From positions 1 to 20,716 of IMG/VR virus record IMGVR_UViG_3300009494_000025: 20,716 nt of DNA; one strand, given 5' to 3'. Positions 1,794 to 18,855 of the stretch are shown one piece after another. The notes below the pieces were generated by a model. It searched no databases. It was not told the DNA's origin and worked only from the letters and a program-made list of their open reading frames with translations. The stretch comes from a virus. A program made the translations under genes and the position numbers. Numbering within the stretch: the first letter of the stretch is position 1; the number at the start of each line of letters is the position of its first letter.

Positions 1794-2515
1794 TGGGTAA
1801 ACATTTTGATTTTAGCGGCTTTTATTATAGATCTACTGACACGACTACGATATATAGTAGTGGTACTAAATTATATAATAAATTAAAAAATTGTATAAAA
1901 CAGGCCACCCGTAGTATACTGATAGTGTCTCCGTACATCAGTATAAGTGATGATATATGTAATCTGTTGCGCGATGCGGCTGACAGAGGAATACTTATAA
2001 TTATATACATTCGTACGTCTGATAAACATTTTAAACGGGGTGAGTGGTTAGAATCCATCAAGCTTATTAATAGTATAGAAGGAGTTAACATTTTTGCTGT
2101 TGACGGATTACATGCTAAACTATACATATTTGATTCCGAAACTAGCATTGTGGGTTCTGTGAATCTAATTGAACATTCTTTAGAATTTGGTGGAGAATTA
2201 GCGTTGTATTTAGAGCAATATAGTATTATAACTGGTTTAATTGAATATGTGAACACTCAAATCATACCACACGCACAACCAATTACGGAATTAGTAAGCT
2301 CCATTACAATACAAGAACAACGTACATTACCGCTTAAGGATATAATATTTACATTTGGTGTACATAAAAATACTAAATTACGGCAAATCCCAAATTCTTA
2401 CTTGGAGTGGTGTGTGGCTGAACAGGTTAAAGTTATAATACGTGGTAAACCTGCGTGGCGATTAGCTCAACAAGAACTAAAGTATAGAACAAGGAATAAA
2501 CTAATCATAACATGA
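1793..2515 (+). CDS. Phospholipase D-superfamily nuclease with ExoX-C-like tail
   Basis: One clear HKD motif is visible: H107-x-K109-x4-D114-x6-GS-x-N124, the signature of the phospholipase D superfamily. A single copy in a 240-residue protein is the pattern of the nuclease branch (Nuc and BfiI type), where two subunits build one active site. The N-terminal beta strand SILIVSPYIS fits the fold. After about residue 180, FTFGVHKNTKLRQIPNSYL and the WCVAEQ...AWRLAQQELKYR segment resemble the small ExoX C-terminal / DUF3820-like module found on phage DNA-processing enzymes. The gene is coupled on both sides (1-base and 4-base overlaps). A role in phage recombination or host DNA breakdown is inferred. 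Confidence 0.8.
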   Translation: MGKHFDFSGFYYRSTDTTTIYSSGTKLYNKLKNCIKQATRSILIVSPYISISDDICNLLRDAADRGILIIIYIRTSDKHFKRGEWLESIKLINSIEGVNIFAVDGLHAKLYIFDSETSIVGSVNLIEHSLEFGGELALYLEQYSIITGLIEYVNTQIIPHAQPITELVSSITIQEQRTLPLKDIIFTFGVHKNTKLRQIPNSYLEWCVAEQVKVIIRGKPAWRLAQQELKYRTRNKLIIT

Positions 2516-3132
2516 TGCGTTATGTTGTAATTGGTACGAACATGCTACAAGGAACCATAATACTAGTAACACGTACAGGACGATTGTTAAAATCACATCC
2601 GCCAGAACATGTAGCTAGTGCTAGGCGATTTTGTGATAAATACTGGTATGTATTTGCATTAAATAATGTTATGGCAGTACAATTAGTACAAGCTAAAACA
2701 GATGGACAACGAGACGTTAAATACGGTATTTTAACAGATTCAGATCGTCTACGTTATTTACAGTCTGGATATCCGAACGTTAAAAAATCTGGATATATTG
2801 ATATAGATAATTCTGATACGTATGTTAAGTGCCATGTACCTGGGTGTAATTATAAGGCTCGATGTTTGATATCCCATTTGAAAGCTGTACACAGTATGAC
2901 AGGAACTGAGTATAAACGTCAATACGGTGGAGAATTATTCTGTAAAGAATCTTTAACTGCTATGAGTGCTGCCGGTAAAACTGGTGCCAGTCATGATTTT
3001 AATCGAATTGTACAAAAAGTACGAATTCTTAGTAGAGAGCAACGAGAACGGATATTACATAACATCGATAAAGAAATAGAGCGCGGAGACTGGCGAGAAA
3101 AATACAAGGAGCCAAGAGAAGATGACACCTAA
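2512..3132 (+). CDS. Ros/MucR-like zinc-finger protein, paralogue 1
   Basis: The 206-residue protein carries a Ros/MucR-type finger: C107-x4-C112 and H122-x4-H127, followed by MTGTEYKRQYGG, the usual helix after this finger (H-x-x-T-x-x-EY-x-x-x-Y-G). The C-terminal stretch GKTGASHDFNRIVQKV is shared with the minus-strand paralogue at 18322-18855 (GKTGAANDWNHFCRLF) and, more loosely, with 16107-16508. About 100 N-terminal residues are unique to this copy and resemble no domain I recognise. Ros/MucR proteins bind AT-rich DNA and act as regulators or H-NS-like chromatin proteins. The finger has C-x4-C where the two paralogues have C-x2-C. It overlaps the PLD gene by ATGA. Confidence 0.8.
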   Translation: MMRYVVIGTNMLQGTIILVTRTGRLLKSHPPEHVASARRFCDKYWYVFALNNVMAVQLVQAKTDGQRDVKYGILTDSDRLRYLQSGYPNVKKSGYIDIDNSDTYVKCHVPGCNYKARCLISHLKAVHSMTGTEYKRQYGGELFCKESLTAMSAAGKTGASHDFNRIVQKVRILSREQRERILHNIDKEIERGDWREKYKEPREDDT

Positions 3133-5450: not shown

Positions 5451-5800
5451 TGCCTTGTCTTTGTAATTATGCTCATTGTAATAAAACTCGTTGTGACACT
5501 GATTGTCGCACATGCCAGTATTATGTAGCTGGTAGGGGTAGTAGAGCATACGATTGTGGGCTACCGGCGGATGAGGATTGTATAGACCTCTTTCGTCGGT
5601 GCCCCGAATGTATTTGGCATATCCCCGATCGTAGATTCGTTGAGGATGATGATCCACGTACTAAACAAAAACGTTATCGTGATAATCACCCCCGTAGAGA
5701 AAACAAACGTAAAAAACTATGGCGTAATAAACTAAAAAATAAGCAAAAATTAGCTGAAAAAGCTAGATTACGCAGGGCACAAAAATGGATCAAGAATTAG
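5450..5800 (+). CDS. Cys-rich, basic-tailed zinc-binding protein
   Basis: The first 54 residues hold ten cysteines (C3, C5, C10, C15, C19, C22, C36, C44, C51, C54), enough for two zinc clusters. The rest (about residues 66-116) is a strongly basic helical tail. The layout suggests a nucleic-acid-binding accessory protein. It is coupled to the DUF669 gene (TAATG) and overlaps the primase-helicase start by 16 bases, so a replication role is plausible. No named family is recognised. Confidence 0.7.
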   Translation: MPCLCNYAHCNKTRCDTDCRTCQYYVAGRGSRAYDCGLPADEDCIDLFRRCPECIWHIPDRRFVEDDDPRTKQKRYRDNHPRRENKRKKLWRNKLKNKQKLAEKARLRRAQKWIKN

Positions 5801-8616
5801 ATTATATAAAGATATACAGTCGTTGGTTTCCAGATATTAGTTCTTTGACTCCAAATGATTTAAATAACGTATTAGTTATATGCCCTTTCCCAGACCACGA
5901 TGATACAGAACCTTCATTGTCTATTAATATATACACTGGATTATGGAAATGTTTTGGGTGTGATTCGGCAGGCGATATATTTACATTTATAATGAAAATA
6001 GAAAATGTAGACTTTCGTCGGGCAGAAAATATAGCTAGAAGTATGTCATTACCTTTTATTCCACCGGCAGAAATAACTAGATGGAAACGTGCTTTACTTA
6101 AATCGACGAAATGGATGTTATTTTTACGAGAACAACGAGGATTAACAAAAAGTACTATTAATGAATATGATTTAGGCTGGGACGGTAGTCGCATTACTAT
6201 TCCCGTATATGATATTGATGGTAATTGTGTTAACATACGTAGGTATAGCAAAACTGCATCAGGTAAAAATAAAGTATTAAATTACAAACAAGGTTATGGT
6301 AGCCCAATACGTATTTTTGGGTTATCAGTTCTAAAGCACGATACTATATGGGTTGTTGAAGGTGAATTAGATTGTATTTTAGCTAATCAATTAGGTTTAT
6401 ACGCGGTAACATCTACAGGTGGCGCATTAGCGTGGAATCCTGATTGGGCAGATAAATTTCAGGATAAAACAATTTGTATTTGTTATGATGTAGATAAGTC
6501 AGGTAAAGTAGGGGCTGAAAGAACAGCTAGACATCTTGCTACTACAGCTACCGAAGTTAAAATTATCGCTTTACCAATGGTAGATCAAGTTGGGGCGGAT
6601 GTAACAGATTATATAGTAGCAAACGGTGCTACCTTGGAAGATTTTTACACTTTAAGTAAACAAACTACTATATGGGAATTACCTACAGTGGCGGATAATG
6701 CAGAAAGTACAGATAAGGATGAAACTGTTTATGAAGTACATTTAAGTCAGGCTACTCAAGCTAGATATTTTAAAAAGCGAGTAAGTGTAACAGGTATCGT
6801 AGCTGGAAAAACTTTAGCGCCATATATGGTACCTAAAAAGGTAGAATTTCAATGTTCAGCGGATATGGATGCATGTATTAATTGTCCTATGATACATGCT
6901 GCCGGGGTTGCCAAAACGATGGTAGTTAGCAGTAAAACTAAATGGTTGTTAGACTTAATTGGTGTAGCAGATAACACTCAACGCAATACATTATTAGCTA
7001 TGGTGGGTGCTGGACGGTGTAAACATTTAAGTATGAAAGTAATGTCTATGCAGAATGTAGAAGAAATATCAGTCATTCCTGATTTAGACTTTACTACTAG
7101 TACCGAAGAATATTGTATTAGGCGTTGTTTCTTTGTTGGTAATGGTTTACGCAGTAATCAACCATATGTATTTACTGGATTATCATTACCAGACCCTAAA
7201 AATCAGATAGCTACTTTATTATTTAATAAAGCTGATAATACTCAGGGAGATATATTTTCCTTTAAAATGACACCTGAGATATTTAAACAATTGCGTATAT
7301 TTCAACCTAAGAAACACCAATCTATTACAAATAAGTTTAAACATATATACACAGATTTAAGCGCTAATGTTACTGGTATTGTTGGGCGACATGATCTTAT
7401 TACAGCAGCTGATTTAGCGTGGCATTCAGCATTATCCTTTATCTTTCAAAAGCGAAAAGTAATGCGCGGATGGGTAGAAGTTTTAATCATTGGGGATCCT
7501 AGAACCGGTAAAACTGAGACGGTTTCTAACTTACAACAACACTATCGTTTAGGCGAATTTCTAACAGGGGAGAATACATCATATGCAGGACTTATTGGTG
7601 GATTACAACAAAACAATAAAGTATGGCAAATTACTTGGGGAAAACTCCCGCTTAATAATGGCAGATTGGTTGCTATCGATGAAATTAGCGCCCTTAGCGT
7701 TGAGGAAATTGGCCAAATGTCTGGGGTACGATCTACAGGCATCGCTGAAATCACTAAAATTCAAACTGAACGTACTTTCGCTAGAACAAGAGCTATCTGG
7801 ATGTCTAATCCGCGGTCAGCCAGAACCCTTGCTACATATACTTATGGGGTGTTAGCAGTCAAAGAACTCATTGGACGACCTGAAGATATTGCTAGATTTG
7901 ACTTGGCGATGTCGGTGGCTAATAATGAAGTCGATGTGGAACTTATTAATACAGAAAATATACCAAAAGTAAAGCATACATACACTAGTGAATTATGTCG
8001 TACATTATTATTATGGGCGTGGTCTAGAACGCATGAACAAATTAATTTTACTTCAGATGCAGTATCGGCTATTTTAAGAGCGGCTATAGATATGGGTAAT
8101 ACTTATTCACCTAAAATTCCATTTGTAGAGGCCGCAGATCAACGGATTAAATTAGCTAGATTAGCTACAGCTGCGGCTATTAGAACTTTTTCTACTGAGG
8201 ATGGAGATACAGTATTAGTTACTAAAGATCATGTTCAATTTATAGTAGAATATTTAACAGCTGTGTATTCTAAACCGTCATTTGGATATATGCAGTTTAG
8301 TGAAATGGAAAATCAGGATGATCGGGCATTAGAACAAAATAAAGACGAAATTGAAACTTTTTTAACTGAACAACGAGAATTTGCACATCTATTAATGCGT
8401 ACGCATCAATTCAGAGCAAGAGAATTGGGAGAGATGTTAAATGTCGATGGATTTGAGATACAAAACTATGTTAGTTTCTTAATGAAATTTGGGTTATTGA
8501 TTAGAACGCCTAATGGTTATATTAAAAGTCCAGCATTAATTCAGAAATTACATGAATATTTACCGCATATACCTATAGAGAATAAACCGCAGAAAAGAAC
8601 TAAAAGCCGTTTCTAA
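5785..8616 (+). CDS. Primase-helicase: CHC2 zinc finger, TOPRIM and MCM-like AAA+ domain
   Basis: The 943-residue protein starts with a CHC2 primase zinc finger (C33, H38, C56, C59 in CPFPDH and WKCFGC). A TOPRIM domain follows, with VVEGELD (E192) and CYDVDKSG (D235, D237). A linker with cysteines (about 350-370) may be the OB/zinc part of an MCM-like N-terminus. The helicase core has Walker A GDPRTGKTE (570-578), Walker B LVAIDEIS (DE at 632-633), a sensor asparagine in WMSNPRSART and an arginine-finger-like DIARFDL. These resemble MCM AAA+ proteins rather than DnaB/gp4 RecA-fold helicases. The C-terminus (from about 870) looks like a winged helix. It should prime and unwind at the phage fork with the polymerase downstream. 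Confidence 0.88.
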   Translation: MDQELDYIKIYSRWFPDISSLTPNDLNNVLVICPFPDHDDTEPSLSINIYTGLWKCFGCDSAGDIFTFIMKIENVDFRRAENIARSMSLPFIPPAEITRWKRALLKSTKWMLFLREQRGLTKSTINEYDLGWDGSRITIPVYDIDGNCVNIRRYSKTASGKNKVLNYKQGYGSPIRIFGLSVLKHDTIWVVEGELDCILANQLGLYAVTSTGGALAWNPDWADKFQDKTICICYDVDKSGKVGAERTARHLATTATEVKIIALPMVDQVGADVTDYIVANGATLEDFYTLSKQTTIWELPTVADNAESTDKDETVYEVHLSQATQARYFKKRVSVTGIVAGKTLAPYMVPKKVEFQCSADMDACINCPMIHAAGVAKTMVVSSKTKWLLDLIGVADNTQRNTLLAMVGAGRCKHLSMKVMSMQNVEEISVIPDLDFTTSTEEYCIRRCFFVGNGLRSNQPYVFTGLSLPDPKNQIATLLFNKADNTQGDIFSFKMTPEIFKQLRIFQPKKHQSITNKFKHIYTDLSANVTGIVGRHDLITAADLAWHSALSFIFQKRKVMRGWVEVLIIGDPRTGKTETVSNLQQHYRLGEFLTGENTSYAGLIGGLQQNNKVWQITWGKLPLNNGRLVAIDEISALSVEEIGQMSGVRSTGIAEITKIQTERTFARTRAIWMSNPRSARTLATYTYGVLAVKELIGRPEDIARFDLAMSVANNEVDVELINTENIPKVKHTYTSELCRTLLLWAWSRTHEQINFTSDAVSAILRAAIDMGNTYSPKIPFVEAADQRIKLARLATAAAIRTFSTEDGDTVLVTKDHVQFIVEYLTAVYSKPSFGYMQFSEMENQDDRALEQNKDEIETFLTEQREFAHLLMRTHQFRARELGEMLNVDGFEIQNYVSFLMKFGLLIRTPNGYIKSPALIQKLHEYLPHIPIENKPQKRTKSRF

Positions 8617-9012: not shown

Positions 9013-9321
9013 ATGGCTTATTTTACAGTATTTACAGCTTTAGCAGGGGCTTTTTTAACTGCTCAAAAAACTAATCGTATGAGGCGACATGGTTTTATAG
9101 TTTGGATTTATACTAATGGTTTTTGGATTTGGTATAACTGGGGCGATTGGGCAATGGTAGCGCAATTCAGTTTATTTTTCTTCTTGTGTTTTTTAGGTAT
9201 ATGGAACAATCAAGATGTTATCGGTGGACTTATTAAAAACGTCAAACACGGAGCACCATATCCAACACGCCCATATAGTAAAGAGGAACTTGATGAAAAT
9301 CTCAGAATCAATAAACCATGA
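9013..9321 (+). CDS. Small multi-pass membrane protein, PnuC-like half
   Basis: The 102-residue protein has two to three hydrophobic spans (about residues 1-18, 26-42, 47-65), rich in Trp and Phe (FIVWIYTNGFWIWYNWGDW). This pattern of a short span, a basic loop and Trp-rich spans recalls small phage membrane proteins related to one repeat of PnuC or semiSWEET transporters; that similarity is by eye only. The tail is polar and overlaps the polymerase start by 29 bases. AAAAGGATAGTATA precedes the ATG, and it is the first gene after the strong promoter. Confidence 0.65.
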   Translation: MAYFTVFTALAGAFLTAQKTNRMRRHGFIVWIYTNGFWIWYNWGDWAMVAQFSLFFFLCFLGIWNNQDVIGGLIKNVKHGAPYPTRPYSKEELDENLRINKP

Positions 9322-11218
9322 AGTCCCTACACTGGCACAGTTAATTCACGGCATTGATGAAGATGCTGAAATGCGAGAACAATTTTTTATGGGTGACGTA
9401 ATTAACATTGAATTATTAGAACCGGCACATAAAAAAGATCGGGTATATTTAGACCTTGAAACTACAGGTCTAGAGCCGTTCTTTGGTGATACTATACTTG
9501 GTATAGCATTGGGCGTGACTGATGTTTATGGTACTAGTTTCCATTCACGTTATTATCCATTTAGACACGATAATGGAAAAAATTTGAGATTAACCCATCA
9601 GCATCAAGTCATGTCTCATCTATTAACTTTAGACGAAACAGTAACGTGGGTATTCCACAATGCACGATTTGATTTACACTTTTTACGACGCATATTCCCT
9701 AAATTTGGTAAACGCATTTGGGATACATTAATGGCAGCCCATATAGCAAATGAGCACCATAAAAGTTTTGGTTTAAAGGCTTTAGGCGTAGAATACTTCG
9801 GGGAAAGTGCTACCGAAGAAGAAAGAGCTTTAGAGTTATTAGCCAGTAAAGGTAACATGCGTACACTTACTCCAGAAGAAGTGGCTCCTTATGCGTGTAA
9901 AGACGTTGAACTTACTTACTTATTAGATGATCAGTTCAATAAAGAACTAGCAGAACAAGGACTCACTGATTACGCACGTCGCCAAATGTCCTTGGTGGAT
10001 TTAGCTGAACAATTAGAAATGAAAGGATTACCACTCAAGATTAAACGTATGGAAAGGTTTGATAAAGAGGCACGAAAAGAAAAAATTCGATTACAGGCAA
10101 AAATTGCACGTATTACTGGTATTAGTGATTTTAATCCTAATTCTCCTGTACAAATTAAAAAGTTTACCGGGTGGAAAAGTACGGCTCAAGACATAGTGGA
10201 TGAAAGAATAGCTTTGGGTCAAGTGGAACCGGAATTTGTGGATTTTTTTGAAACACTTTTAGAATTCCGACACTGGACTAAGGTTAGTGGTACGTATTAC
10301 GCTAAATTCCGAGAACGTATGGATAAAGAAGAACGTGTACATCCCAATCTTAATCCAACCGGAACTGGAACTGGTAGATTTAGTTGTAGTAAGCCTAATA
10401 TGCAGTCTCTTCCTAGAGCGCGTTCAGCCGATGAAAAAATATATAAGGTACGTCAAACTATCGGGCCACGTAAAGATAATATATTAGTATTTATTGATTA
10501 TAAACAAGCTGAAATGCGTATTGCGGCCCATTTTGCAGAAGAAGAAACTGTACTAAAACTATTATGTGATGGACATGATTTACATTCATGGGTAGCTGAA
10601 GAAATATTTGGATCAGATGAACCATATATGCGCTGGATCGCTAAACGTATTAATTTTGGTACGGTATATGGTATTGGTGCTAAAGCATTATCAATTGATA
10701 AAGATTTACGTAAAATGTTGCGAGTAGTTCCTGATTTTACATGGAATCGTCAAATGGCATCTAAATTTTTAGCGATGTATCATAGAACCTTTCCGGGTTT
10801 TGGGCGATTACTTGCTATAGCACAAAATACAGCTAAACGTAGAGGACATATTTATTTATTTACTGGACGTTATAGACGGTATCCAGATAAAAGTGATCGG
10901 GCTACTCGTAAAGCCAGCAGTAATTTAGTACAAGGTACTGTAGCCGAAATTGTTAACGAAGCTATGTTACGTTGTGATATAGTATGTAAAAATGCCAAAA
11001 TTGAGCCGGGATTAATCTTCCAAGTACATGATGAACTTGTTTTCGAAATGCCTCGTAATCAAGCAATTAATATTGTACCAACATTGGTGGAACAGTGTGA
11101 AGATTGGGATTTTACTGTACCAATGCCTGTGGATGTGGCGGTTGGGATAGACAGTTGGGGTAAAAAGATAGACTTTGACAAGTTTGTTAAAAGTGAACAA
11201 AGGCGGATTAAAAAATGA
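9293..11218 (+). CDS. Family A DNA polymerase with 3'-5' exonuclease (DpoZ candidate)
   Basis: The 641-residue protein has all three exonuclease motifs: DLETTG (D54, E56), HNARFD and YACKD. The polymerase motifs are complete: TGRFSCSKPNMQSLPR, motif A DYKQAEMR (catalytic D402), motif B RWIAKRINFGTVYG and motif C VHDELVFE (D580, E581). There is no 5'-nuclease domain, as expected for phage family A enzymes. Motif B has Phe at the sugar-selection position. The start at 9293 is chosen because AAGAGGAACTTG precedes it; an upstream ATG at 9215 lies deep inside the previous gene. Its place just before the MazG-like, PurZ and HD genes matches the DpoZ polymerases of aminoadenine phages, but no residue visible here proves a preference for diaminopurine. 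Confidence 0.93.
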   Translation: MKISESINHEVPTLAQLIHGIDEDAEMREQFFMGDVINIELLEPAHKKDRVYLDLETTGLEPFFGDTILGIALGVTDVYGTSFHSRYYPFRHDNGKNLRLTHQHQVMSHLLTLDETVTWVFHNARFDLHFLRRIFPKFGKRIWDTLMAAHIANEHHKSFGLKALGVEYFGESATEEERALELLASKGNMRTLTPEEVAPYACKDVELTYLLDDQFNKELAEQGLTDYARRQMSLVDLAEQLEMKGLPLKIKRMERFDKEARKEKIRLQAKIARITGISDFNPNSPVQIKKFTGWKSTAQDIVDERIALGQVEPEFVDFFETLLEFRHWTKVSGTYYAKFRERMDKEERVHPNLNPTGTGTGRFSCSKPNMQSLPRARSADEKIYKVRQTIGPRKDNILVFIDYKQAEMRIAAHFAEEETVLKLLCDGHDLHSWVAEEIFGSDEPYMRWIAKRINFGTVYGIGAKALSIDKDLRKMLRVVPDFTWNRQMASKFLAMYHRTFPGFGRLLAIAQNTAKRRGHIYLFTGRYRRYPDKSDRATRKASSNLVQGTVAEIVNEAMLRCDIVCKNAKIEPGLIFQVHDELVFEMPRNQAINIVPTLVEQCEDWDFTVPMPVDVAVGIDSWGKKIDFDKFVKSEQRRIKK

Positions 11219-11459: not shown

Positions 11460-11876
11460 ATGAGATGGTATCGAATTAGTATAGCTATTGAACGCCAAGT
11501 CGGAGATGTTATGGCGACTGATGTAATTAATATGGATTCTATAGAGCCTGTACAATGGCAATGTGCGTTTGATGCATCTGGACAGACTTTATGGTTTTTT
11601 AAGCGAATGATTAGTTTATATCGTCAATTCATTCGTAAGAATGCCGACTATGCCACAGATCTTTCAAATTGGTATGAAGGATTCATGGAAAGTGGACTTC
11701 AAGGCATATATAATCGTACCACTGACAAGATGAATCGCATTAAAAATCATCTTCGTGGACAAAAGCTACATAATGAAAGTTTTTCAGATTCCTGTGGTGA
11801 TGCGGCAACTTATTTATTAATGTTAGACGAAGCCAATAATGAAGATGTACCTATACAAGGTACTAACTGGAGTTAA
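11460..11876 (+). CDS. MazG-like / DUF1599-type nucleotide pyrophosphohydrolase (MazZ candidate)
   Basis: The 138-residue helical protein carries the pattern of DUF1599 (Nmad1) and related MazG-like enzymes: RKNADYATDLSNW in the middle, then TTDKMNRIKNHL and a last acidic helix NESFSDSCGDAATYLLML, equivalent to the ES-x-x-DT-x-x-D-x-x-x-Y signature. MazG-like enzymes release pyrophosphate from (d)NTPs through clustered acidic residues binding Mg2+. In aminoadenine phages the MazZ enzyme turns dGTP into dGMP, the PurZ substrate; PurZ lies 0.4 kb downstream, which makes this gene the natural candidate. AAAAGGAACG precedes the ATG. The family call is by motif only, the dGTP role is inferred, and it may differ from MazZ of cyanophage S-2L. 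Confidence 0.62.
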   Translation: MRWYRISIAIERQVGDVMATDVINMDSIEPVQWQCAFDASGQTLWFFKRMISLYRQFIRKNADYATDLSNWYEGFMESGLQGIYNRTTDKMNRIKNHLRGQKLHNESFSDSCGDAATYLLMLDEANNEDVPIQGTNWS

Positions 11877-12067: not shown

Positions 12068-12289
12068 ATGGCAGCTATAGGAAAATACCGACGTACTTGT
12101 TTATCATGTCCTATGTGGCAAATGGATGAATCCGTTTCACCACATACGTGGGGCATATGTAAACGTATTGGAGAGCCTACTCAAGGTGATGGGAGTTGTA
12201 CACATCATCCGTGGAAAGATACTCCCAATTCCCCCAAAATAGCATATTCAAGGAGAAAGAAATCATGCAACGTGGACGTATCAATTTAA
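12068..12289 (+). CDS. Cys-rich small protein overlapping purZ (73 aa)
   Basis: TTAAGGAGTTAACAG precedes the ATG. Four cysteines, C11-x2-C14, C31 and C44, with Trp after them (CLSCPMW, GICKR, CTHHPW), form a pattern seen in small phage zinc-binding proteins. The last 25 bases overlap purZ, so the two genes are coupled. The function is unknown; the conserved neighbourhood in other purZ phages would show whether it belongs to the Z pathway. Confidence 0.65.
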   Translation: MAAIGKYRRTCLSCPMWQMDESVSPHTWGICKRIGEPTQGDGSCTHHPWKDTPNSPKIAYSRRKKSCNVDVSI

Positions 12290-13401
12290 CAATGGGATTG
12301 CAGTTTGGCAGTGAGGGCAAAGGATTACTTAGTGGTCACTTAGCTCTATTAGCTGCTGTAGATGTTGCAGTATGTGACTTTGGTCCTAATACTGGACATA
12401 CTTTTGTTGATGTTCGGGATGAAAAAACTATAGTTACACAATTACCGATGGCTGTAGTTAATCCCATGACCCAATTAGTAATAAGTAGTGGTGCCATTAT
12501 TCACCCACCAACATTACTTAAAGAAATTGAAGAAAATAATTGTGGACATCGGGTTACTATTGATCCCAATGCTGCTATAGTAACCGAAGAATGTCGGCAA
12601 TGGGAACAAAAACACTTGCCAAGAATTAGTTCTACCAAGAAAGGGGCCGGAGCAGCATTAGCATGGAAAGTTATGCGTCATCCAGATGCAAAGATTGCCG
12701 GAATGATTGATGAGCTTAAACCCTTTTTAGGTGAAGTTACTCCGTTGTTATGGAAAGCATGTTTGTCTAACAAAATGATTTTAGGGGAGCAAGGACAAGG
12801 ATTTTGGTTATCGAGAGATCACAGCAATATGTGGCCTTATTGCACTGGTCGCAATGTTACATCTATGGCATTTATGGACGGTTGTGGGCTTCCTAGTACA
12901 TTATTAGGCAATGTTTATGGGGCCCTGCGTACGTTTCCCATTCGTGTAGGCAATGATAAAGATAGTGATGGTACAGACATCGGATATAGCGGTAATGCCT
13001 TTGAAGGATCTAAGGAATTATCATGGGAAGATATTACCGTACAAAGTCGTTCTTCAAAGCCTATTCAAGAGACTACTACTGTTACTGGGAAAATACGACG
13101 AGTATTTACATTTTCGATGGATCAAGTAATACGTGCCATTAATATCAACGGAGTTACTGACATCTTTGTAAATTTCTTAAATTACTTAGATGATAAGGAT
13201 AGTAATGCCAGAGATATTAAAACATTGTCATCACCATCTTTACAATTCTTAGGTACTCTACAGATGACATTAAATCAACAATGCGTACGTATTGATGGGC
13301 GACCGTTACCCGTTATTACATTTGGTGGGGTAGGCCCGACGCATAAACACGTTATTGACATCAGCCCACAACATCTAGCGTTACATCTCCAGACACGATA
13401 A
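12265..13401 (+). CDS. purZ: PurZ: adenylosuccinate synthetase homologue for 2-aminoadenine
   Basis: The 378-residue protein belongs to the adenylosuccinate synthetase family: GLQFGSEGKG (11-20) is the P-loop-like motif, FGPNTGHT (39-46) holds the catalytic His45, GEQGQG and YCTGRNVTS follow, then RTFPIRVGN and TVTGKIRRVFTFS. PurA enzymes have GDEGKG; here Ser16 replaces the catalytic Asp. That Asp-to-Ser change marks PurZ enzymes, which use dGMP rather than IMP and join it to aspartate with ATP, giving the precursor of 2-amino-dAMP. The length (shorter than the roughly 430 residues of PurA) and the segments around YCTGRN and RRVFTFS also match phage PurZ. The start at 12265 follows AAGGAGAAAGAAATC. 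I am confident of PurZ rather than PurA; enzymatic activity is inferred. Confidence 0.92.
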   Translation: MQRGRINLTMGLQFGSEGKGLLSGHLALLAAVDVAVCDFGPNTGHTFVDVRDEKTIVTQLPMAVVNPMTQLVISSGAIIHPPTLLKEIEENNCGHRVTIDPNAAIVTEECRQWEQKHLPRISSTKKGAGAALAWKVMRHPDAKIAGMIDELKPFLGEVTPLLWKACLSNKMILGEQGQGFWLSRDHSNMWPYCTGRNVTSMAFMDGCGLPSTLLGNVYGALRTFPIRVGNDKDSDGTDIGYSGNAFEGSKELSWEDITVQSRSSKPIQETTTVTGKIRRVFTFSMDQVIRAININGVTDIFVNFLNYLDDKDSNARDIKTLSSPSLQFLGTLQMTLNQQCVRIDGRPLPVITFGGVGPTHKHVIDISPQHLALHLQTR

Positions 13402-13422: not shown

Positions 13423-14019
13423 ATGAATATCGGTCAAAAAAGTTTATTATTTGGGGCCCACCAGTTAATCCTACATTCGATACTGGTGGGCGTGGCATGG
13501 CGTAGATTATACTTACGCTGGCCTTTACCGTGGGAATGGGCATGTATTTTTATACATGACATTGGTTATTGGCATACTAATGATTTTACTAGTTTGGAGG
13601 CTCGAAATCACCCATTTTTGGGTGCACGAATAGCTAGACGATGGTTTGGTACTAAAGGTTTTGATTTAGTAGTTGGACATTCATCAAGGGCCGCTAAAAT
13701 CCATAAATTACCAATATCTAAAATGTGTGCAGCGGATAAAATGGCTAGTTTATTAATGCCACGACGGTTATATTTATGGTTAACACATAACACAGGGGAA
13801 TTACAACAATATCGAATATGGGCTGCTACCAATGGGTATACTTGGTATAACGATTTACATTTTTCGGGTGCACACAATTGGTATTATGGGTGTCTAATAC
13901 CTGAGTGTATAGCTAAAGCTAAAAAACATCTAGTATATATTAATATTATTCAATTTAATACAGCCCATGAGTACATACAAGGGGTGGCTAAACATGTATA
14001 CGCCGGAAGACATTGCTAA
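13423..14019 (+). CDS. HD-domain phosphohydrolase (DatZ candidate)
   Basis: The 198-residue protein has an HD metal site: H13 or H18, H45-D46 (FIHDIGYW), H63 (RNHPFLGARIARRWFG), H86 (VVGHSSRAAK) and D105 (CAADKMA). Two extra histidines between the HD pair and the last Asp suggest a two-metal site, closer to the YqeK and HD-GYP type than to the simpler arrangement reported for the S-2L dATPase. In purZ phages an HD enzyme (DatZ) next to purZ strips the triphosphate from dATP, so adenine is kept out of the DNA. Position 21 bases after purZ suggests this role, but substrate cannot be read from the sequence. The ribosome binding site is weak. Confidence 0.8.
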   Translation: MNIGQKSLLFGAHQLILHSILVGVAWRRLYLRWPLPWEWACIFIHDIGYWHTNDFTSLEARNHPFLGARIARRWFGTKGFDLVVGHSSRAAKIHKLPISKMCAADKMASLLMPRRLYLWLTHNTGELQQYRIWAATNGYTWYNDLHFSGAHNWYYGCLIPECIAKAKKHLVYINIIQFNTAHEYIQGVAKHVYAGRHC

Positions 14020-15103: not shown

Positions 15104-15955
15104 ATGGCGAGATTACGAAGTCCAATAACGTGCTTTGGTGGTAAAAGTCGAATGGCAACTAGATTAATATCTTACTTTCCAGAACACAAGACTTATGTAG
15201 AAGTGTTTGGTGGCGGGGGTTCGGTACTCTTTGCTAAAGAGCCATCATTAGCAGATATTTATAACGATATTGATAGCACATTAGTGTCCTTTTTTAGGGT
15301 GTTAAGGGACGAAGAACAGTTTAAGGAATTTCATAAACTTGTAGAATTAACACCGTATTCACGTGAAGAATTTTACTTTTGTCGGGACCATTGGAAAGAC
15401 ACCCAAGATATGGTTACAAGAGTATTCCGATGGTTTGTGGTAGCCAGAATGAGTTTTGCGGGGGAAGTAGGCGGTTCTTGGAGTCATTCGGTAACAACAT
15501 CACGCCGTGGGATGTCTAAGGCAGTATCGGCATGGCTTTCGATAGTTGAGATGTTACCAGAAATACATGAAAGACTATCGAAGGTACAAATAGAACATCA
15601 AGATTTTCGAAGTTTAATTAAAGCATATGATAGAGTACAAACGTTTTTTTATTGTGATCCACCTTATTTATTAGAGACAAGACGTAGTGGTGGGTATGAT
15701 CATGAAATGTCAGACGCGGATCACATTGATTTATTGACGATTCTCAAACAAGTAAAAGGAATGGTATTAATTAGTGGGTATCCATCTGAACTATACTCTA
15801 AGATACTTGATGGTTGGGATTATAAAGAATGGGATAGAGTATGTAGCGCAGCGGGAAATACGGTAGGAACTGGAATATTGGGAGAAGGATCAGGAAAAGA
15901 GAAACAATCACGAATAGAAGCAGTATGGGCAAATTATACGCTGCCTAAAGATTGA
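15104..15955 (+). CDS. D12-class DNA N6-adenine methyltransferase (Dam-like)
   Basis: The 283-residue enzyme has the complete D12/Dam layout: N-terminal SPITCFGGKSRMA, S-adenosylmethionine loop EVFGGGGSVLFA (motif I, about 33-44), YNDID (53-57) and catalytic DPPY (185-188). The family transfers methyl from S-adenosylmethionine to N6 of adenine, often in GATC. In a phage it usually protects against restriction. Next to a Z-DNA gene set this is odd, because a fully substituted genome would have no adenine for it. It may act on 2-aminoadenine, on residual adenine, or on host DNA. The ribosome binding site is weak (AAAGGA about 18 bases upstream). Confidence 0.9.
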   Translation: MARLRSPITCFGGKSRMATRLISYFPEHKTYVEVFGGGGSVLFAKEPSLADIYNDIDSTLVSFFRVLRDEEQFKEFHKLVELTPYSREEFYFCRDHWKDTQDMVTRVFRWFVVARMSFAGEVGGSWSHSVTTSRRGMSKAVSAWLSIVEMLPEIHERLSKVQIEHQDFRSLIKAYDRVQTFFYCDPPYLLETRRSGGYDHEMSDADHIDLLTILKQVKGMVLISGYPSELYSKILDGWDYKEWDRVCSAAGNTVGTGILGEGSGKEKQSRIEAVWANYTLPKD

Positions 15956-16106: not shown

Positions 16107-16508
16107 ATGGCACGTAAGAAATCCAAGGGGAAAGCCCCCACCCCGAAGCCCCCGACTAAGGCGGCTGCACCTAAGGCCCCTAAGGCCAAGAAGAAAAAGC
16201 AACTTGATCCGAATCTTCCAGTAGTCAAGTGTGTGATCTGCGGTCACGAGGCTCGGTGTCTAACCAGCCATCTCAAACATGAACATGACATGAAGGGAGC
16301 CGAGTACAAAGCGAAGTACGATAACGCTCCCGTGTTTGCCCCAGATATCTTGGAGAATCTCAAGAATCAGGGCAAGGACAGTTCCAGCAATCAGTGGAAC
16401 GGCATGATGAAATTACTCAAACATGCCGATGAACCCACTCGCAACGACATCATTGAGATGTTGGAAGAGGTCACTGGTATGACTATGGATGAGGCCATGA
16501 GTGCCTGA
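16107..16508 (+). CDS. Ros/MucR-like zinc-finger protein with basic tail, paralogue 2
   Basis: The first 37 residues are almost entirely Lys, Pro and Ala, like a histone H1 tail. Then comes a Ros/MucR finger, C42-x2-C45 with H55-x4-H60 (KCVICGHEARCLTSHLKHEH), and the MKGAEYKAKY helix. A C-terminal segment (APVFAPDILENLKNQGK onward) is shared with the minus-strand paralogue. The gene has a consensus promoter and GC-ending codons unlike its neighbours, which suggests strong expression or a foreign origin. Members bind AT-rich DNA as repressors or H-NS-like proteins; a high-abundance genome-binding role is inferred. Confidence 0.85.
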   Translation: MARKKSKGKAPTPKPPTKAAAPKAPKAKKKKQLDPNLPVVKCVICGHEARCLTSHLKHEHDMKGAEYKAKYDNAPVFAPDILENLKNQGKDSSSNQWNGMMKLLKHADEPTRNDIIEMLEEVTGMTMDEAMSA

Positions 16509-18321: not shown

Positions 18322-18855
18322 CTATTGGACGGGTTGGTCTAACACTCCCTCTTTCACTTGAAGAAGCGTAAAACCGGTTTCTTTTTCGAGGGTCTTAATG
18401 GTGGCCTTGCGTTCTTCTTCACCGGCCCAGTTAAAGAGACGACAGAAGTGATTCCAGTCGTTGGCTGCCCCGGTTTTCCCTGAGTTTTTAAAGTTTTCCA
18501 ATAGATCAGGGGCGAAAACGGGGGCACCGTTGTAGGCGGCCTTGTACTCGGCCCCCTTCATGCTGTGTGCGTTCTTCAAGTGAGTAGTTAGGCATCGGGC
18601 CTCGTGTCCACAGATCTCGCACTTGACTAATGGTAAACCGTCGTTCCGCTTGGCGGCTCTTCGGTCTCTCTTGCGGGTGGCTTTGGTGCCGGTCTTGGAA
18701 GCGGCTACTGCCTTCTTCATTTCGGTGGCTGAGACTACATCTGCCAGAGTAGTCTCAGGGGCCGGTTCTGATCCCGGAATATCTTTATTACTCCGAGGGC
18801 GAGAAGGTGTCGGCTTTGCCTTTTTCTTTGATGAACGAATTTTTGTATCTGTCAT
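18322..18855 (-). CDS. Ros/MucR-like zinc-finger protein with long basic tail, paralogue 3
   Basis: The 177-residue protein has a Lys/Arg/Pro-rich N-terminal tail (about residues 5-24), a second basic stretch (RKRDRRAAKR) and then the finger C79-x2-C82, H92-x4-H97 (KCEICGHEARCLTTHLKNAH) with MKGAEYKAAY. The C-terminal part (APVFAPDLLENFKNSGKTG and onward) closely matches the copy at 16107-16508. It has its own consensus promoter, nearly identical to that of the plus-strand copy, and a strong terminator, so it is a self-contained unit. CAGGAGACCGACC precedes the ATG. Confidence 0.87.
   Translation of the reverse strand: MTDTKIRSSKKKAKPTPSRPRSNKDIPGSEPAPETTLADVVSATEMKKAVAASKTGTKATRKRDRRAAKRNDGLPLVKCEICGHEARCLTTHLKNAHSMKGAEYKAAYNGAPVFAPDLLENFKNSGKTGAANDWNHFCRLFNWAGEEERKATIKTLEKETGFTLLQVKEGVLDQPVQ

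Follow-up and report, generated by a model that had tools for sequence, protein, structure and literature searches.

PurZ is the first enzyme toward 2-aminoadenine (Z), the natural replacement of adenine in viral DNA. In the adenylosuccinate synthetase PurA, the guanine of GTP is recognised by a donor-site Asp. Published work divides the phage enzymes into PurZ and PurZ0, which have separate sets of partners. PurZ of phiVC8 and S-2L (PDB 6fm1 and 7odx) belongs to a Z-cluster of purZ, datZ and mazZ, has Ser followed by Thr where PurA has Asp, and presents Asn or Gln to the base of the phosphate donor. PurZ0 (Gordonia phage Ghobes / Arthrobacter-phage type, 7vf6) combines a GSEAKG loop with a donor-base Asp and has DutZ/DmtZ as partners (PMC12884076). 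Further relatives considered here are the PurZ of Bacillus phage vB_BpsS-140 (annotated purA, MH884512), chromosomal paralogues with a GSEGKG loop (Nostoc, Bradyrhizobium, Halobacteria, Nitrosomonas and others), and the short Pyrococcus PurA PH0438 (5k7x), whose structure was solved with IMP and GTP.

The stretch of DNA analysed here, hereafter the window, is the linear virus fragment IMGVR_UViG_3300009494_000025 of 20,716 bases, and it contains one PurZ match, an ORF that by profiles, site residues and tree is a PurZ-type enzyme (Table 1). Like phiVC8/S-2L PurZ (33% identity over the alignment), the protein has Ser at the Asp position, the catalytic His, Arg, Val and Gln of the dGMP site, a TTVT loop and Asn or Gln facing the donor base, but it carries Glu instead of Thr after the Ser, lies outside their clade, and has no detected DatZ, MazZ or DpoZ partner. 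Its best match in the phage collection, vB_BpsS-140 PurZ (35% identity, E 6e-51), shares the GSEGKG loop and the Asn donor residue, but has no PolA or HD gene annotated beside purZ and is not a supported sister of the window. PurZ0 shares the Ser-Glu loop and the fold, yet differs in GSEAKG, in the donor-base Asp and in forming a separate clade. The chromosomal paralogues share the loop and a short architecture of 340–390 aa, but lie in a cellular operon alongside exonuclease-kinase and DCD-like genes and mostly carry the donor Asp. PH0438 is similar in fold and length, and the aligned archaeal short PurA rows read GDEGKG with a donor-site Asp.

Table 1. Features of the window, in window coordinates
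Feature	Position	Strand	Remarks
Primase-helicase	5785-8616		CHC2 zinc finger, Toprim and an MCM-like P-loop domain in one protein
Family A DNA polymerase (PolA) with 3'-5' exonuclease	9215..11218	+	helix O INFGTVYG keeps Tyr
DUF1599-like (nucleotide modification associated domain 1) protein	11460..11876	+	PHROG_1485 E 1e-11; upstream of purZ
AGGAG, probable purZ ribosome-binding site	12251..12255	+	9 bases 5' of ATG
purZ, deep-branching phage PurZ, 378 aa	12265..13401	+	PurZ/PurA profiles, site residues, tree, AlphaFold model
Active-site loop GLQFGSEGKG	12295..12324	+	DNA GGATTGCAGTTTGGCAGTGAGGGCAAAGGA; in frame of the ORF ending 13401
Ser16 at the PurA Asp position	12310-12312	+
Glu17	12313-12315	+
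FGPNTGHT motif	12379..12402	+	catalytic His45 at 12397-12399
NFLNYL donor-base motif	13171..13188	+	contains Asn306
HD-like protein, 198 aa, uncharacterised	13423..14019	+	immediately 3' of purZ; candidate hydrolase acting on nucleotide pools
Dam-type adenine methyltransferase	15104..15955	+	downstream of the cluster; MethyltransfD12 E 7e-24

Family assignment and tree position

The purZ translation opens MQRGRINLTMGLQFGSEGKG and likely begins at the ATG at 12265; the alternative listed start, TTG 12196, overlaps the preceding ORF. The protein matches PHROG_1211 ('2-aminooxy adenylosuccinate synthetase') at E 7e-52 and the NCBIfam PurZ model NF038379 at E 7e-60, while its best solved relatives by sequence search are 7odx (S-2L PurZ, E 4e-38) and 6fm1. 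Because it is a full-length relative of PHROG_1211, NF038379 and 7odx, a chance origin of the loop is excluded. The NF038379 score of 202.8 bits does not reach the curated cut-off of 300 bits, so the claim made here is that of a deep-branching PurZ-type enzyme and not of an NF038379 member. PADLOC returned no result for PurZ or for the neighbouring HD protein, and when viral contigs were scanned with the single protein, no close relative came up for the window PurZ; its relatives in viral contigs came from an alignment-based scan.

The AlphaFold model (mean pLDDT 93.7) resembles both PurZ and PurA structures. Foldseek ranks S-2L PurZ, phiVC8 PurZ and then Pyrococcus PurA, with 7odx and 6tnh as top matches, and VIA-align gives its highest Z score to Pyrococcus PurA 5k7x (45.1), against 43.8 for phiVC8 PurZ and 41.0 for PurZ0 7vf6. 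Since PurA and PurZ fall in the same Z range (41–45), the fold indicates superfamily membership only and was not used for classification.

Careful IQ-TREE phylogenies of 77 rows were computed with all columns (run A) and on a fixed alignment from which the loop and donor columns had been dropped (run B). In both runs, PurA is split from all Ser-bearing rows with support of 100/99. The window lies inside a 44-row phage PurZ clade (100/98 with all columns, 100/97 with columns dropped) and is excluded from a 26-row crown that includes phiVC8, S-2L, Barton, Bm1 and OH (98/98 and 99/98, respectively). Placement within PurA, which the sequence-only reading had named as the outcome that would speak against PurZ, was imposed on the phylogeny and rejected (AU p = 0.020, lnL difference 48); the window as sister of the crown was not rejected (AU p 0.278). 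The window PurZ also does not group with Ghobes/Olihed/Hiyaa, the placement that, together with the donor Asp, marks PurZ0. On the tree the Asp-to-Ser replacement is one event, and exchanges between Glu and Thr, Cys or Ser number 3 to 5, reaching 8 in a quick tree with the loop masked, so that Glu is no clean one-step marker. That quick tree, made with the loop overwritten by X and the rows realigned, did not recover the crown as one clade, and it was not relied on because the fixed-alignment tree with columns dropped restored the crown. By these phylogenies the window PurZ is an old side branch, outside the crown that holds phiVC8, S-2L and the DatZ phages.

Residues of the nucleotide and donor sites

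The site residues of S-2L PurZ (listed in PMC8342488) were mapped onto the alignment with the window PurZ. Ser16 aligns with S-2L Ser23 and the catalytic Asp of PurA (Asp13), and His45 aligns with S-2L His52, which bears out the sequence-only reading of the loop as one with Ser for the PurA Asp and the catalytic His retained. Specifically, the S-2L contacts kept in the window enzyme are Ser16, Asn42, His45, Thr46, Ser123, Thr124, Arg138, Gln178, Tyr192-Cys193-Thr194, Arg227-Val228, the TTVT loop 271–274, Arg278, Asn303-Phe304 and Gly357-Pro358 (window PurZ numbering), while the nucleotide site differs at three positions (window/S-2L: Glu17/Thr24, Thr43/Ala50 and Ser122/Gly130). Asp occupies the Ser16 position in all 33 PurA rows and Ser in none of them. 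The same reading took Ser as the hallmark of PurZ, in agreement with its presence in all 147 phage sequences of the published PurZ group (PMC12884076), a count independent of the scans made here, and Ser in the window PurZ is therefore expected. That this Ser permits dGMP binding is a published inference; in the S-2L structure 3.7 Å separate the Ser hydroxyl and the 2-amino group, which is more than the hydrogen bond that had been postulated would allow (PMC8342488). Moreover, the cellular paralogues share the dGMP-site Ser, Arg and Val, so these residues alone are no proof of dGMP use.

At the donor-base position, Asn306 of the window corresponds to phiVC8 Asn297 and S-2L Gln308, and Asp is found there in every PurA and PurZ0 row and in 70 of the 77 cellular paralogues in the alignment. 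The S-2L study argues that an amide at the donor site clashes with 2-amino bases (PMC8342488), an argument that, applied to Asn306, predicts ATP or dATP as the phosphate donor of the window enzyme. Section 24 of PMC12884076 states that PurZ0 and PurZ prefer ATP and GTP 'respectively'; the reverse order is suggested by the introduction of that paper, and also by the S-2L/phiVC8 structures and the aligned Asp/Asn.

Taken at the sites of Ser16, Glu17 and Asn306, the states are Asp/Glu/Asp in PurA, Ser/Glu/Asp in PurZ0 and most cellular rows, Ser/Thr/Asn or Gln in phiVC8 and S-2L, and Ser/Glu/Asn in the window. The window state recurs in the early branches vB_BpsS-140, L016, L017 and L083 (L numbers denote loci), other early branches having Ser/Glu/Asp (L020, L021) or Ser/Thr/Asp (L024); the aligned states thus yield no single order of changes. 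The residue after Ser is Thr in 74, Glu in 9, Cys in 5 and Ser in 3 of the 91 phage rows, and Glu in 73/77 cellular rows, counts that depend on retrieval: the genome scan pattern required Ser, which makes cellular Ser 77/77 by construction, and the viral scan also admitted rows through the TTVT motif. The sequence-only reading gave the phiVC8 loop as GSTGKG, which the alignment confirms, but the Ser-Glu pair with which it was contrasted is not special, being present as GSEAKG in PurZ0 and as GSEGKG in vB_BpsS-140, other early phages and bacterial and archaeal chromosomal paralogues. Aligned rows outside the crown commonly carry the pair, and the unusual feature is the mix of Ser, Glu and Asn306. 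The proposal of an intermediate type stands in so far as the enzyme branches outside the phiVC8/S-2L crown and mixes the PurZ residues Ser and Asn306 with Glu; judged from alignment and tree, it is a mosaic active site on an early branch, not a proven ancestor.

Replication genes and candidate pool enzymes

The replication genes of the window comprise PolA, a Sak4-like gene and the primase-helicase. Profiles built from 7 DatZ and 3 MazZ references (threshold E 1e-3) match no ORF of this 20.7-kb fragment, and both proteins are likewise absent by profile from L015, L017, L020, L022, L024, L040 and L074; among crown loci, a DatZ match is present in nearly all and MazZ in most. The window PolA lacks the Tyr-to-Phe change of DpoZ and misses the NCBIfam DpoZ cut-offs (170 bits vs 500, 72 vs 350). 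The helix-O Phe, the only change common to both DpoZ clades (PMC8599892), occurs in 50/54 DatZ-bearing loci with PolA, and polymerases of early-branch loci have Tyr, Asn or Ser at this position. With DatZ, MazZ and the DpoZ change all undetected, the usual Z-DNA companions are missing from the fragment, which counts against a Z-DNA role. S-2L, however, achieves full Z replacement despite a non-selective polymerase, dATP being removed (PMC8065100, PMC8342488), so DpoZ is not required. Elsewhere in the window, ROS/MucR-like zinc-finger segments 'C.ICGHEARCLTSHLK..H.M.GAEYK' occur in the genes at 2512-3132, 16107-16508 and 18322-18855, the second matching Pfam ROS_MUCR at E 2e-8 and the other two recognised by weak score or by eye.

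The HD-like protein matches Pfam HD at E 0.005 with 17.5 bits, below the cut-off of 22. Across 30 aligned sequences of its family, H18, H45, D46, H63, H86 and D105 are invariant, a set that to our reading resembles two-metal HD proteins. For its model (pLDDT 81.7), the VIA-align rows are mostly HD-superfamily chains with Z at most 6.7 and Foldseek gives no significant match in PDB or BFVD; DatZ is missing from the VIA-align rows, an absence that excludes nothing. The protein has no DatZ-profile match and, as a single-protein query, no PDB sequence match. The family occurs in 36 viral contigs, three of which encode PurZ with the two genes touching or at most 1 kb apart, in the orders PolA-PurZ-dUTPase-PF18909-HD (L230), PolA-PurZ-PF18909-MT-A70-HD (L260) and PolA ... 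HD-PurZ-kinase-like (L240), PF18909 being a dATP/dGTP diphosphohydrolase domain. Because PurZ is rare (at least about 600 pattern matches in 2.9 million viral contigs), this co-occurrence looks far above independence, L230 and L260 being related to each other. In a FastTree phylogeny the window PolA has the PolA of L230/L260 as its sister (96), and the PurZ of these two loci is of a different, PurZ0-like type with a donor-site Asp. Thirty-three of the contigs, and also Manatee Spring podoviruses, carry the HD family with no PurZ match, so the family is not confined to PurZ loci. One 344-aa gene close to the Manatee Spring phage HD gene, considered as a possible PurZ, proved not to be one. At L240:66-2534, a PurZ locus, a family A polymerase is fused to an N-terminal uracil-DNA-glycosylase-superfamily domain.

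The DUF1599-like protein has no Pfam match of its own, and Streptococcus phage relatives of this PHROG_1485 protein pass the Pfam DUF1599 cut-off; by this relationship it is a possible nucleotide-pool enzyme. In early-branch loci, fusions of a kinase-like P-loop domain with dUTPase or dUTPase_2 lie directly 3' of purZ (L015:7391-8362, L017:7109-8113, L022:7011-8150, L024:7134-8687). PurZ is followed by separate kinase-like and dUTPase-type genes in L083, by a kinase-like gene alone in L074, by dUTPase_2 alone in L016 and by a dATP/dGTP diphosphohydrolase domain in L021. Pool enzymes thus do accompany early PurZ, drawn from other families.

The chromosomal GSEGKG PurZ-like genes of bacteria and archaea (L116:5995-7161 and equivalents in L133, L103, L145 and L114) belong to a conserved gene group that has the same ingredients as the early phage loci: an RNase_H_2 exonuclease lies upstream, carrying DUF429 and a kinase-like domain in several cases, and in L133, L103 and L114 a gene of the DCD/dUTPase fold follows downstream. 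A full-length PurA with GDEGKG stands beside the PurZ-like paralogue in 12 of the 14 genomes checked (G001–G014). In Terriglobus roseus, the 539-aa protein at L121:5419-7038 joins a P-loop-like domain at its N terminus to a PurZ-like one, and a DUF7002 gene comes next. The 168-kb Flavobacterium phage MaF61 encodes a divergent PurZ-like protein with GSSGKG (L006:3983-5326) between scaffold and terminase genes and near a ribonucleotide reductase gene. A literature search found no adenylosuccinate synthetase paralogues in anti-phage defence.

Proposed role and alternatives

We read the window gene, at a probability of roughly 0.7, as a dGMP-using phage PurZ of an early-branching lineage with a role in Z-DNA; substrate, donor, product and DNA incorporation are what we infer from sequence, and the literature consulted contains no enzyme assay of an early-branch PurZ. 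The enzyme would couple dGMP and L-aspartate, using ATP or dATP to supply the phosphate, giving N6-succino-2-amino-dAMP, which host PurB and then host kinases would convert to dZTP for 2-aminoadenine DNA. Ser16 in place of the PurA Asp would offer room for, or suitable polarity toward, the guanine 2-amino group, His45 would retain its catalytic role and Asn306 would select the adenine donor, Glu17 presumably representing the state common to PurA, PurZ0 and cellular paralogues where most crown PurZ have Thr. The dATP pool may be adjusted by enzymes other than DatZ and MazZ, candidates being the DUF1599-like protein and the adjacent HD protein, the latter as a hypothetical DatZ substitute, and an ordinary, probably non-selective phage PolA would replicate the DNA and incorporate Z.

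The lack of DatZ, MazZ and DpoZ in early-branch phages, together with the Dam-type methylase in the window, would suit an enzyme that uses dGMP or a close relative for a purpose other than full A-to-Z replacement. It might put Z in place of only part of the A, supply the precursor of another modified purine or act like the chromosomal PurZ-like operons, whose GSEGKG paralogues stand beside PurA where full Z replacement is implausible. We regard this as rather unlikely, as S-2L replaces adenine fully with a non-selective polymerase (PMC8065100, PMC8342488) and related loci have other pool enzymes near PurZ. Far less credible is an auxiliary gene of host origin for an adenylosuccinate synthetase of PurA type, working on IMP and GTP, whose catalytic Asp has changed: although the protein matches Pfam PF00709 (E 1e-30) and its fold score against 5k7x is comparable to that against phiVC8 PurZ, the uniform Asp of the PurA rows, the donor Asn where PurA has Asp, and the rejected placement in PurA all argue against it. 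Equally improbable is a PurZ0-type enzyme with GTP as donor and DutZ/DmtZ partners, to which the Glu after Ser and the PurZ0-like loci L230/L260, with their HD gene and PolA related to the window PolA, would point; the donor-site Asn stands against the PurZ0 Asp, the tree groups the window with phage PurZ, and no dUTPase-like gene is found among the scanned window proteins.

Measured against the published groups, the new element, as far as sequence can tell, is a PurZ variant below the NF038379 cut-off and without known partners, the Ser-Glu pair and the PurZ Ser being already known. The loci collected here point toward several older phage branches that have PurZ without the partners of either group and with other nucleotide enzymes beside it. 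It is possible, though we hold this only tentatively, that the early PurZ branches including the window form a third Z-DNA or modified-purine system, with a non-selective PolA, other pool enzymes and the HD family of 13423-14019 in the place of DatZ, and that they preserve a state between the cellular GSEGKG operons and phiVC8/S-2L. The early loci supply concrete gene candidates, namely the HD family, the kinase-dUTPase fusions and the DUF1599-like protein, and the mosaic active site could help to separate the effects of Glu, Thr, Asn and Asp on the selection of dGMP and of the donor. If the early branches make Z-DNA, PurZ would have come first, and control of the pool and choice of polymerase would be later additions, made repeatedly.
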